A stretch of DNA of 64,000 nucleotides from Nitrosomonadales bacterium. Its GTDB lineage: Bacteria > Pseudomonadota > Gammaproteobacteria > Burkholderiales > Gallionellaceae. How positions within the stretch are numbered: the first letter of the stretch is position 1; each line of letters starts with the position of its first letter. The DNA is taken from NCBI GenBank assembly GCA_016234685.1, contig JACRAT010000026.1, forward strand, positions 62,001 to 126,000, in the 5' to 3' direction. The notes under the pieces are model-generated. The model was not told where the DNA came from, made no database searches, and was given only the letters and a program-made list of their open reading frames with translations. This document shows, piece after piece, positions 16,626 through 19,475 of this stretch. The translations under genes and the position numbers were made by a program.

Positions 16626-19475
16626 TCAAGCCACCACGTTGACCAAGCGACCCGGCACCACGATCACCTTCTTGGGTGCGCCCCCGTTCAACTGCTTCTG
16701 CACCACCTCGGACGCCAGCGCCAGTTGCTCGATGGTCGCCTTGTCCGCATCCTTGGCGACGCGGATGCTGCCGCGCAACTTGCCGTTGACTTGGATCATC
16801 AACTCGATCTCGTCCTGCACCAGCGCAACTTCGTCCACTTCCGGCCAAGATGCGGCGAGGATGTCGTCGCCATAGCCGAGGTCTTTCCACAGCGTTTGGG
16901 TGATGTGTGGGGCGATGGGGGAGAGCAGCCGCAGCAGGATGGACAGGCCTTCGCTCAACACGCCTCGATCTGCACTGGTCTTGGCCTTTTCCAGCGCGTT
17001 AAGCATCTTCATCGTAGCCGACACCACGGTGTTGAATTGGAAGCGCGAGAAGTCGAAACTGGCTTGCTTCAGTGCCAGATGGACTTCGCGGCGCAGGTTC
17101 TGGTCGTCAGCCGACAATTGTCCGGCCATCCCGGTCTGGCCGATGTCGCTTAGTTCGGCAGACAGATTCCACACTCGGCGCAGGAAACGATATGCACCTT
17201 CCACGCCGCTGTCCGACCACTCCAGTTGCTGATCGGGCGGAGCGGCGAACATCATGAACAAGCGCGCGGTGTCGGCGCCGTATTGGTCGATGATGGACTG
17301 CGGATCGACGCCATTGTTCTTGGACTTGGACATCTTCTCCGTGCCACCGATGATGACCGGCAAGCCGTCAGACTTCAGCACCGCACCGACAGGGCGACCG
17401 CGCTCGTCAGTCGCTACTTCGACATCCGCCGGGTTGATCCACAGCTTCTTGCCGTTAGTCTCTTCACGGAAGAAAGTCGGCGCGACCACCATGCCCTGGG
17501 TGAGCAGATTACGGAACGGTTCGTTGAGCTTTTGAGCCGCGTGCAGCGCGCCGTTCGCTCCCTCGCCCGCTGGCGGGAGAGGGGTGGGGAGAGGGTCTTT
17601 GCGCACCACCTCCCCGAACACCCCCACATCGCGCATCAGCTTATTGAAGAAGCGCGCGTACAGCAGATGCAGGATGGCGTGCTCGATGCCGCCGATGTAT
17701 TGATCGACCGGCAACCACTGGCGGGCGCGCTCGTCCACCAAGCCGGTAGTGCAATCCGGGCTGGTGTAGCGGGCGTAGTACCAAGACGATTCCACGAAGG
17801 TGTCCATGGTGTCGGTCTCGCGCCGCGCTGCTACGCCGCACTTGGGGCAGCTGCATTGGTAGAACGACGGCATCTTGGCCAGCGGCGAACCGGCGCCGTC
17901 CGGCACCACGTCTTCGGGCAATACCACCGGCAACTGGTCATCTGGAACCGGCACATCGCCGCAAGTCGGGCAATGAATGATGGGGATCGGGCAACCCCAG
18001 TAGCGTTGGCGCGAGATGCCCCAGTCGCGCAGGCGGAACTGGGTCTTCTTCTCGCCCAAGCCTAGCGCAGCGAGATCGGCGGCGATGGCATCGACAGCTG
18101 CGTCATAGCTCAGACCGTCGTACTTGCCGGAGTTGGTGCAAACGCCATCCTTGGTGGCATACCACTCTTGCCAGGCATCTGTGGAGAAGGGGGAAGGGTC
18201 AAGAGAGAAGGGTAACTGCGGCTCGGAGGTTTTTCCCTTCTCCCTTCCCTCTTCCCCCTTCCCTGAAATCACCTGTTTGATTGGCAAGCCATACTTCTTG
18301 GCAAAGCCAAAATCCCGTTCGTCGTGAGCCGGCACCGCCATCACCGCGCCGTCACCATAACTCATCAGCACATAGTTGCCGACCCACACCGGCACTTGTT
18401 CTCCAGTGAGCGGGTGCGCCACTTTCAGGCCGGTGTCCATGCCTTTCTTTTCCATGGTGGCGAGGTCGGCTTCGGCGACGCCGCCTTGTTTGCACTCTTC
18501 GATGAAGGCGGCCAGTTCAGGATTATTCTGCGCGGCGCGCAGCGCCAGCGGATGCTCGGCAGCGACAGCGACGAAGGTGACGCCCATGATGGTGTCGGCA
18601 CGGGTGGTATAGACCCACAATAACTCCCCTCTCCCCTCGGGAGAGGGGCTGGGGGTGAGGGACGGGCTGGGGGTGAGGGACGGACTGGTGGGTGATCCGG
18701 TGAAAGTTCCCCCACCCTCAATCCCTCCCCCGGCGGGAGAGGGAAGCGTAGCCTCGCCTGCGGCGACGACCTTAAACGCAAACCGCACGCCGTAGCTCTT
18801 GCCTATCCAGTTGCGCTGCATGGTCTTGACCTGCTCCGGCCAGCCATCGAGCTGGTCGAGGTCGGCCAGCAGTTCTTCGGCGTATTGGGTGATGCGGAAG
18901 AAGTACATCGGGATCTCACGCTTTTCGACCAGCGCGCCGGAGCGCCAGCCGCGTCCGTCGATGACTTGTTCGTTGGCCAGCACGGTGTTGTCGATGGGAT
19001 CCCAGTTCACCGTGGAGGTCTTTTTGTAGATCACGCCCATCTCGAACAAGCGGGTGAACAGCCATTGCTCCCAGCGGTAGTAGTCCGGCTTGCAGGTGGC
19101 GATCTCGCGCGACCAGTCCACACCCAGACCCAGTGACTTGAGCTGCTGCTTCATGTACTCGATGTTGGAGTAGGTCCAGTCGGCGGGCGGCACGTTGTGC
19201 GCCATGGCGGCATTTTCGGCGGGCAGGCCGAACGCGTCCCAGCCCATCGGCTGCATCACGTTGTAGCCCTTCATGCGGTGATAGCGCGACAGCACGTCGC
19301 CGATGGTGTAGTTGCGCACATGCCCCATGTGCAATTTGCCCGAGGGATAAGGGAACATCGACAGGCAATAATACTTGGGCTTGTCGCTCACATCGTGGGC
19401 GCGGAAGGCTTGCGCGGCTTCCCATTGTTGCTGAACGGCGGATTCGATTTCCTTGGGGGCGTAATTCTGTTGCAT
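16626..19475 (-). CDS. leuS: Leucyl-tRNA synthetase with three in-frame repeat insertions
   Basis: This class I synthetase is 949 residues long, about 85 more than the E. coli enzyme. Signatures are intact: LHMGHVRNY (HIGH motif, near residue 50), the CP1 editing domain, [14 protein letters not shown], the zinc-knuckle cysteines CPTCG and CSCPKCG, and [11 protein letters not shown] (KMSKS, near 713). The excess length is explained by three low-complexity Pro/Ser/Gly-rich stretches at about residues 242-284, 404-431 and 623-642. Each is encoded by palindromic repeat DNA and leaves the frame open. It heads the leuS-lptE-holA-cutA-dsbD operon. Confidence 0.96.
17551..17597. repeat. In-frame palindromic repeat in leuS, copy C
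   Basis: The core CCCTCGCCCGC-TG-GCGGGAGAGGG pairs as a GC hairpin and continues into GGTGGGGAGAGGG. In leuS it encodes [16 protein letters not shown] (around residues 627-642), which has no counterpart in E. coli LeuRS, where the sequence runs directly to the LLCQGMV region. Exact borders are not visible. Confidence 0.7.
18183..18264. repeat. In-frame inverted repeat in leuS, copy B (GGGAAGG type)
   Basis: The purine-rich left arm (GGAGAAGGGGGAAGGG) and pyrimidine-rich right arm (CCCTTCCCTCTTCCCCCTTC) are imperfect reverse complements around a short spacer. The insert encodes [10 protein letters not shown]...[10 protein letters not shown] in leuS, adding about 25 residues compared with E. 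coli. The sequence type differs from the CCCTCTCCC elements in the same gene. Confidence 0.7.
18624..18752. repeat. In-frame composite palindromic repeat in leuS, copy A
   Basis: This 129-base insert (43 codons) carries two inverted hairpin units: CTCCCCTCTCCCCTCGGGAG at one end and CCTCCCCCGGCGGGAGAGGG at the other. A CTGGGGGTGAGGGACGG unit is repeated in tandem between them. Removing it rejoins AAGE and [11 protein letters not shown], the normal editing-domain sequence. GAG codons stand on both sides, consistent with a short target duplication. Confidence 0.8.

Follow-up and report, generated by a model that had tools for sequence, protein, structure and literature searches.

The TMECO/PIT triplex motif is a short palindromic repeat described in 3610 copies from 262 proteobacterial genomes (Holder 2015; PMC4666352). 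Its copies are reported as always intergenic in E. coli MG1655 and as unassociated with transposons, phages or plasmids, its E. coli loci are variable, and in vitro it folds into a triplex; the available text of that report assigns the repeat neither a function nor a mover (PMC4666352). In Enterobacter sp. 638 a repeat of the form CCCTCTCCCXX(X)GGGAGAGGG has been described, often at the 3' ends of genes, according to the accessible part of the source (PMC2869309). Here we describe repeats of this type inside leuS, the gene for leucyl-tRNA synthetase (LeuRS), in a 64,000-nt stretch of a Nitrosomonadales draft genome (the window, to which all positions refer), and their link to genes for DUF559, a Vsr-like endonuclease domain; the leuS insert at 18624–18752 is probably derived from a mobile element that carries such a gene.

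Several other described systems resemble this locus in part. In the REP/RAYT and TIR/TIRYT systems short palindromes surround an enzyme gene, many copies are geneless and some are intragenic, including copies in tRNA synthetase genes (X. oryzae and others), as presented in the accessible portion of PMC3733652. The same source describes the Rickettsia palindromic elements as in-frame palindromes in genes that likely code for working proteins, and describes CGTC repeats as not associated with transposase genes. DUF559 itself is documented in two settings, at least in the portions available: Caulobacter VsrA is proposed to be the mismatch-repair endonuclease behind the SOS response of a methylase mutant (PMC12907096), and a recombining repeated segment of Legionella holds a transposase together with a DUF559 gene (PMC12308824). 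Neither in-frame TMECO copies nor a link between DUF559 and palindromes were reported among the literature matches listed, a scope that leaves subscription papers and preprints outside.

The leuS gene is a single frame of 949 codons that stays open across the insert at 18624–18752, as the original prediction had stated from the letters alone. The predicted anatomy, two inverted hairpin units with a tandem repeat between them, was also recovered: the hairpin at 18626–18648 has 10 perfectly paired bp in its stem and a loop of 3 nt, the one at 18723–18743 is imperfect, and the repeat lies between (Table 1). Read in gene orientation, the first hairpin is followed by 5 nt, its tag, 29 nt, the second tag twice, 5 nt and the second hairpin. 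A 10-bp stem arose in 3/500 mononucleotide shuffles of the segment; for the imperfect hairpin the DNA fold has z = -2.0, with an equally good fold in 4/200 shuffles. The Pfam match (PF13603) and a predicted model place the insert in the editing domain of LeuRS. In this model (24 sequences, mean predicted local distance difference test score, pLDDT, of 74.7) the insert is predicted to lie between strands 226–237 and 285–290, and the fold outside the inserts appears otherwise normal. The insert is not alone, as leuS carries two more palindromic inserts (Table 1), and all three are modeled as loops with a pLDDT below 50; the site of the one at 18191–18266 holds a similar insert in a relative (G006, L028). 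A search of positions 16600–26000 against Rfam at gathering thresholds gave nothing except one tRNA.

Table 1. Features of leuS and its palindromic inserts, and a further palindrome pair in the window.
Feature	Position	Strand	Basis or remark
leuS gene, 949 aa	16626..19475	-	open frame, Pfam, fold
In-frame insert in editing-domain loop: two inverted palindromic end units, tags inward, geneless	18624..18752	-	
First end unit (gene orientation): hairpin CCCTCTCCC-GCC-GGGGGAGGG, then tag GGGTGGGGG	18709..18743	-	layout as in left end of DUF559 elements
29-nt spacer separating the end units; position of the endonuclease gene in DUF559 elements	18680..18708	-	
Second end unit: duplicated tag CCCTCACCC, then a spacer and the hairpin CCCTCTCCC-GAG-GGGAGAGGG	18627..18679	-	
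Duplicated tag: 18-nt tandem repeat, 94% identical	18643..18678	+	
Second in-frame palindromic insert in leuS, variant arms (GGGAGAAGG / CCCTTCTC type)	18191..18266	-	
Third in-frame insert in leuS: CCCTCTCCC-CAC-CCCTCTCCC-GCCAGC-GGGCGAGGG	17560..17595	-	layout as in right end unit of DUF559 element
Further in-frame palindrome pair, 926-codon frame (RPSPIRGGAGGEGG...LPQRERVS)	24915..25007	-	hairpin/sequence reading

The insert belongs to a genome-wide family. In the source assembly (43 contigs, 87.7% complete, 2.35 Mb) the core pattern CCTCTCCC-N0-12-GGGAGAGG occurs at 40 places, compared to one for the pattern read backwards, and the unit with the CCCTCACCC tag occurs 29 times, compared to none for the control. 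Aligned copies share the layout CCCTCACCC, 2–5 nt, CCCTCTCCC, loop, GGGAGAGGG, and the exact tag (CCCTCACCC/GGGTGAGGG) stands beside 30 of the 40 core matches. Judged by its sequence, this repeat is the TMECO/PIT motif, in the reverse complement of the consensus of Holder (2015; available part of PMC4666352): a C-rich 9-mer, a loop, a G-rich 9-mer, a short spacer and a second G-rich 9-mer, sometimes in inverted pairs. The pattern CCCTCNCCC N3-6 GGGNGAGGG N3 GGGNGAGGG, with one stem mismatch allowed, is present in the family, with the published 3-nt spacer in 13 of the 29 units and a spacer of 2, 4 or 5 nt in the others. The LeuRS unit contains all three 9-mers, with a spacer (second loop) of 5 nt instead of 3. 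The original prediction, which spoke of a mobile-type palindrome accepted by an essential synthetase, is thus borne out for the in-frame position in the editing domain and for the family, while mobility stays conditional; it did not anticipate that the family was already described, or that it is tied to a DUF559 gene.

The family differs from the tagged repeats of the other systems. GTAG or CTAC, the tag of REP/RAYT, is found no more than 8 nt from the hairpin in 3/40 core matches. One TIR motif, GGGGWSAS (accessible portion of PMC3733652), fits GGGGTGAG. As predicted, the likeness to the Rickettsia elements holds in principle: in-frame insertion into protein genes is shared, whereas the sequence and the lineage are different and the CGTC end, as described in the same portion of PMC3733652, is essentially lacking (CGTC or GACG within 8 nt in 1/40 core matches).

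The 40 matches to the strict core pattern fall into 33 loci. In 21 of these the repeat lies in frame in an open reading frame (ORF) with a Pfam match, and in 16 of the 21 the domain evidence flanks the insert on both sides or a single domain match encloses the insert; the other five of the 21 have one-sided domain support. The remaining loci comprise five without an ORF of more than 150 aa, one at the flank of a DUF559 gene and six that are unclear. The 16 genes, named from their domain content, encode LeuRS, a DinG-type helicase, aconitase, alanyl-tRNA synthetase (AlaRS), MetH, a LysA-type decarboxylase, EarP, a molybdopterin oxidoreductase, methionyl-tRNA synthetase (MetRS), a Methyltransf_28 protein, an RlmI-type methylase, ApbE, TrpC, a RecB-type nuclease, RecQ and an ABC-F-type ATPase. 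Bacterial genomes are mostly coding, and intragenic insertion therefore needs no targeting; retention of the frame is what selection would leave. Two example units contain a stop in 1/6 and 3/6 frames, respectively. The intergenic location reported for TMECO/PIT in E. coli, and the frequent location at gene 3' ends in Enterobacter, contrast with a repeat that is here mostly in frame within genes; location is a published property of TMECO/PIT and does not enter into how its sequence is defined.

We aligned 110 LeuRS sequences, of which 109 rows free of X at the editing-domain loop were counted (some genomes appear twice). The closest named LeuRS matches among those listed are Gallionella, Nitrosomonadales and other proteobacterial assemblies (records very near the source genome may be omitted), and we therefore refer to a Gallionellaceae-type family. 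The loop is short in 97 rows, slightly longer without the motif in 3 and occupied by a motif-bearing insert in 9, including relative G001 of the same genus. All nine inserts contain at least three CCCTCNCCC/GGGNGAGGG 9-mers (one mismatch allowed), so that the same stretch in non-palindromic codons was not seen as such. Stems of 10–12 bp are found in four inserts (L016, L017, L050, L098). In the other five (L021, L029, L046, L064, L093) the best stems measure just 5–7 bp, from which it follows that some have decayed. The peptides encoded vary in sequence and length from lineage to lineage. The second loop, at 17560–17595, likewise holds an insert in 9/109 rows, two of which (L030 and L048) come from one genome; a sequence excluded for an X (L069) looks like a tenth.

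A Pfam scan of the repeat-bearing ORFs identified DUF559 (PF04480) in two of them: one is a small gene adjacent to a unit, the other is MetRS, whose linker contains a whole DUF559 domain. Among 120 relative genomes, 75 have a DUF559 match, and there are 115 hits with E below 1e-20. For the flanks, the 90 best-scoring of these 115 were read (30 fetched by the search, 60 by position), plus the third DUF559 copy of the source genome. The density of the motif falls with distance from DUF559, from 16.2 per kb at 0–100 bp to 5.7 (100–200), 1.3 (200–300), 0.8 (300–500) and 0.3 (500–1500); it lies within 300 bp in 78/90 loci and on both sides in 52/90. The distance bins, together with loci of Y1 transposases, served as controls, since GGGAGAGGG reads identically backwards and a reversed pattern is therefore unusable here. 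With one mismatch allowed, 51 and 52 flanks have inward-facing tags and 21 and 23 have outward-facing ones, and both ends are inward in 35/90 loci; a strict unit search gave 8 pairs only, all inward. In the 22 loci displayed, CCCTCGCCC and GGGCGAGGG frequently form the outermost 9-mers, resembling terminal inverted repeats. In the source genome, two of the three DUF559 genes (C17, and the MetRS gene on C18) are flanked by inward inverted units. The LeuRS insert at 18624–18752 consists of both inward-facing ends of such an element with no DUF559 gene, and the 29-nt spacer may be a deletion remnant.

Perfect stems of at least 8 bp occur in 109/177 windows near DUF559 compared to 9/170 far from it in the relatives, in 38/52 compared to 3/52 in a sample of the phylum (299 genomes, 108 with a DUF559 match), and in 8/44 compared to 2/44 for Y1 transposases. 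At least one side has such a stem within 200 bp at 74 of the 90 loci of the first set, at all 26 phylum loci with full flanks and at 7 of 22 Y1 loci. For 27 new phylum loci, all among the best-scoring, the motif is within 300 bp in 19. Across the 120 genomes, the full unit and a strong DUF559 hit occur together in 48, the unit alone in 10, DUF559 alone in 16 and neither in 46 (Fisher 2e-10), and across 48 genomes of other families, one each, in 11, 5, 5 and 27 (p = 7e-4), in tests that ignore shared ancestry within a family. DUF559 is present in all 21 genomes with at least 10 units, and unit counts inside one genus are 1, 12 and 29.

Whole units of palindrome, DUF559 and palindrome also occur in frame in host genes, a feature by which this system differs from REP/RAYT and TIR/TIRYT. 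Frames were found for 77 of the 90 loci. Such composites, nine of whose ORFs were also searched against Pfam, lie in MetRS of the source genome, G001, G018, G088 and G093, in the HrpA helicase of 8 genomes (one at another position), in MmeI-type and HsdM-type methylases and in an asparagine synthase. At the main HrpA site, read at 30 loci from 110 matched genomes, three states were observed: DUF559 in 7, palindromes only in 3 (G064, G005 and, as a remnant, the source genome) and empty in 18, with another insert in 1 and an unclear locus in 1. In MetRS, the linker that holds DUF559 elsewhere contains a lone palindrome in G064, and the site is empty in G002, whose MetRS is 91% identical over the query. 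A conserved-gene site that is occupied in some relatives and empty in others is also a feature of Vsr-like homing endonucleases; here, however, no intron or intein was recognised around DUF559, which stays in the open frame between palindromic ends.

The relation to known homing enzymes extends to the nuclease domain, though not to the LeuRS insert. A profile of 30 DUF559 sequences, among which D65, E76, D78 and Q81 are included in the invariant residues, matched the PDB entries 3hrl ('Endonuclease-Like Protein', 2.4e-40) and 3r3p ('Mobile intron protein', 8.5e-5). We take the latter to be I-Bth0305I. Matches to toxin B subunits, with E of 0.18 and above, were discarded as noise. In E. coli, the idea that the species lacks DUF559 was rejected: ycjD, between sapF and fabI, is annotated as DUF559, including in K-12 J53, which makes the proposed link between repeat and enzyme accessible to experiments in a laboratory strain. 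A 1.5-kb sapF-ycjD-fabI query is covered to 80% or more in 3361/5426 E. coli genomes. Twelve regions were read; TMECO 9-mers are found 3' of ycjD in all six loci with the gene, that of K-12 J53 included, and none were found in 3.5 kb at all six loci without it. In these six strains (L369–L374) a gene annotated as MFS transporter immediately follows sapF. In K-12 J53 a long inverted repeat (CACCTCATTCTGACAA...TTGTCAGAATGAGGTG; L363, 866–911) lies 5' of ycjD and is unlike TMECO. A 46-base repeat query matched 605/5426 genomes, 36 of them over 80% of its length, and was not used further.

Taken together, we consider it probable that the LeuRS insert is a non-autonomous derivative, akin to a miniature inverted-repeat transposable element, of a DUF559 mobile element, with DUF559 as the proposed mover. 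A TMECO/PIT copy, that is, the CCCTCACCC tag with the CCCTCTCCC-loop-GGGAGAGGG hairpin, would supply both ends, inverted to each other, of a small element, which in its full form would carry the DUF559 gene between them; the LeuRS copy would have lost this gene or never had it. The nuclease may recognise and cut palindromes, or new targets, and copies of the unit could then arise at new sites by transposition or in the repair of breaks, in the way assumed for RAYT with REP or in that of a homing endonuclease with its own gene. The survivors would be insertions that keep the frame in surface loops, where a disordered peptide rich in Pro, Ser and Gly is presumably tolerated rather than useful. 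The association with DUF559 and the anatomy of the units are demonstrated; movement of the repeat by DUF559 is the most likely explanation of these observations, not a demonstrated fact. With somewhat less confidence, we favor the broader view that TMECO/PIT and its variants across Pseudomonadota, including the copies beside E. coli ycjD, are the ends and geneless offspring of one class of DUF559-run elements. In Gallionellaceae-type bacteria these would insert in frame into essential genes (LeuRS, AlaRS, MetRS) as well as others (HrpA, RecQ), and the enzymes made from these genes would contain linkers that palindromes encode or an entire endonuclease domain.

Several observations weigh against these proposals. 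DUF559 is in none of the 110 aligned LeuRS, so the step from a full element to the LeuRS insert was not seen there. Neither a transposition event nor a target duplication nor an exact empty site was observed; relative to G002, the linker of the source MetRS is replaced and not cleanly interrupted, and an exact boundary or target duplication could therefore not be obtained. The motif was absent within 300 bp at 12/90 DUF559 loci, 21–23 flanks have units facing outward, and 8/27 phylum loci show variant C-rich/G-rich palindromes only. Ten of the 58 unit-bearing genomes, with 1–3 units each, have no strong DUF559 hit, and the co-occurrence is uncorrected for relatedness within the family. The third DUF559 gene of the source genome (C16) has no TMECO/PIT motif within 300 bp and other palindromes instead, so that palindrome subfamilies may go with DUF559 subfamilies; at this locus (L330, G000:C16, about 1860–2500) the gene is flanked by CCCCCTTTAGCC-type and CCCCTCTTTGATAAAGAGGGG palindromes. 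Finally, mismatch repair is a different role put forward for DUF559, in VsrA (available part of PMC12907096), and the repeated Legionella segment holds a transposase together with the DUF559 gene (likewise PMC12308824).

The best-surviving alternative, although an unlikely one, is that the palindromes lack mobility of their own and owe their growth and spread to replication slippage, gene conversion and template switching at DNA that forms triplexes or hairpins, with DUF559 as a repair nuclease attracted to such sites. The variable E. coli loci and the triplex formed in vitro (accessible text of PMC4666352) are consistent with this, as are the tandem duplication of the tag in the LeuRS copy itself and the repair role proposed for VsrA (available part of PMC12907096). 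It leaves unexplained, however, why inverted units enclose a DUF559 gene, including in-frame cases within unrelated host genes, and why unit numbers differ as much as they do in one genus.

Less probable again is movement by another transposase, most likely of the RAYT-type Y1 class as for REP, with DUF559 as a passenger captured between copies. The source genome has two Y1_Tnp matches, one of them (C15) among GTAG-type hairpins, intragenic REP are known in tRNA synthetase genes (accessible portion of PMC3733652), and transposase and DUF559 occur together in Legionella (available part of PMC12308824). Nevertheless, the TMECO/PIT motif is within 300 bp of 0/30 Y1 loci in the relatives, compared to 78/90 DUF559 loci. 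Some palindromes are indeed present at the Y1 loci, in line with RAYT, yet this motif is not among them. The paucity of GTAG/CTAC tags, and adjacent palindromes at 26/26 full-flank phylum DUF559 loci, which exceed chance capture, also argue against this explanation. The enzymes differ as well, a tyrosine (HUH) transposase there (PMC3733652, in its accessible portion) and a Vsr-like nuclease here. RAYT/Y1 was set aside as the mover, as the motif was never near the two source-genome matches or the 30 loci. The match on C15 (L157, G000:C15, 1625–2430) lies amid GTAGGATGCGCC-type hairpins in an ordinary-looking REP/RAYT locus.

It is very improbable that the LeuRS peptide has been selected as a useful Pro/Ser-rich loop, with the repeat as co-opted coding sequence. 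Recurrence of inserts at both loops (9/109 rows each) would fit this idea, but also fits a tolerant loop. Peptide sequence and length differ among lineages, 97/109 rows have a short loop, and the loops are disordered in the predicted model. The reading frames of the 26 units in the 21 genes are mixed (C1 6, C2 5, G0 7, G1 3, G2 2, orientation undecided 3), which argues against selection for one peptide.

An assembly or binning artefact, the exception allowed for in the original prediction, can be dismissed almost entirely, since, even though the draft is fragmented and incomplete and repeats are hard to assemble, G001 and other genomes have inserts of the same class at the same LeuRS loop, the frame is kept at 21/33 loci with domains, and two genomes that consist of a single contig, G073 and G092, have DUF559 composites in HrpA.

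The tight link to DUF559 seen across the phylum sample provides a candidate enzyme for the TMECO/PIT repeat. Core enzymes appear to tolerate repeated in-frame invasion by palindromes and, within a tRNA synthetase and within a helicase, even the presence of an entire nuclease domain. This is relevant to the ways in which proteins acquire linkers and to the annotation of such genes.

Three minor observations concern other coding frames. At locus L179 (1895–3709), units lie close to each end of a frame that contains a reverse transcriptase domain. Within the window, the 926-codon frame with the palindrome pair at 24915–25007 (Table 1) reads like DNA polymerase I from its sequence. A UvrD-type helicase (20615–22825) contains at 21968–22078 the peptide HPQGVGRGVPGASGST with a palindromic GGAGCCTCCGGCTCC, which may represent a second coding repeat family; LeuRS of L054 has a stretch, HPQGVGRAVP, that resembles this peptide.

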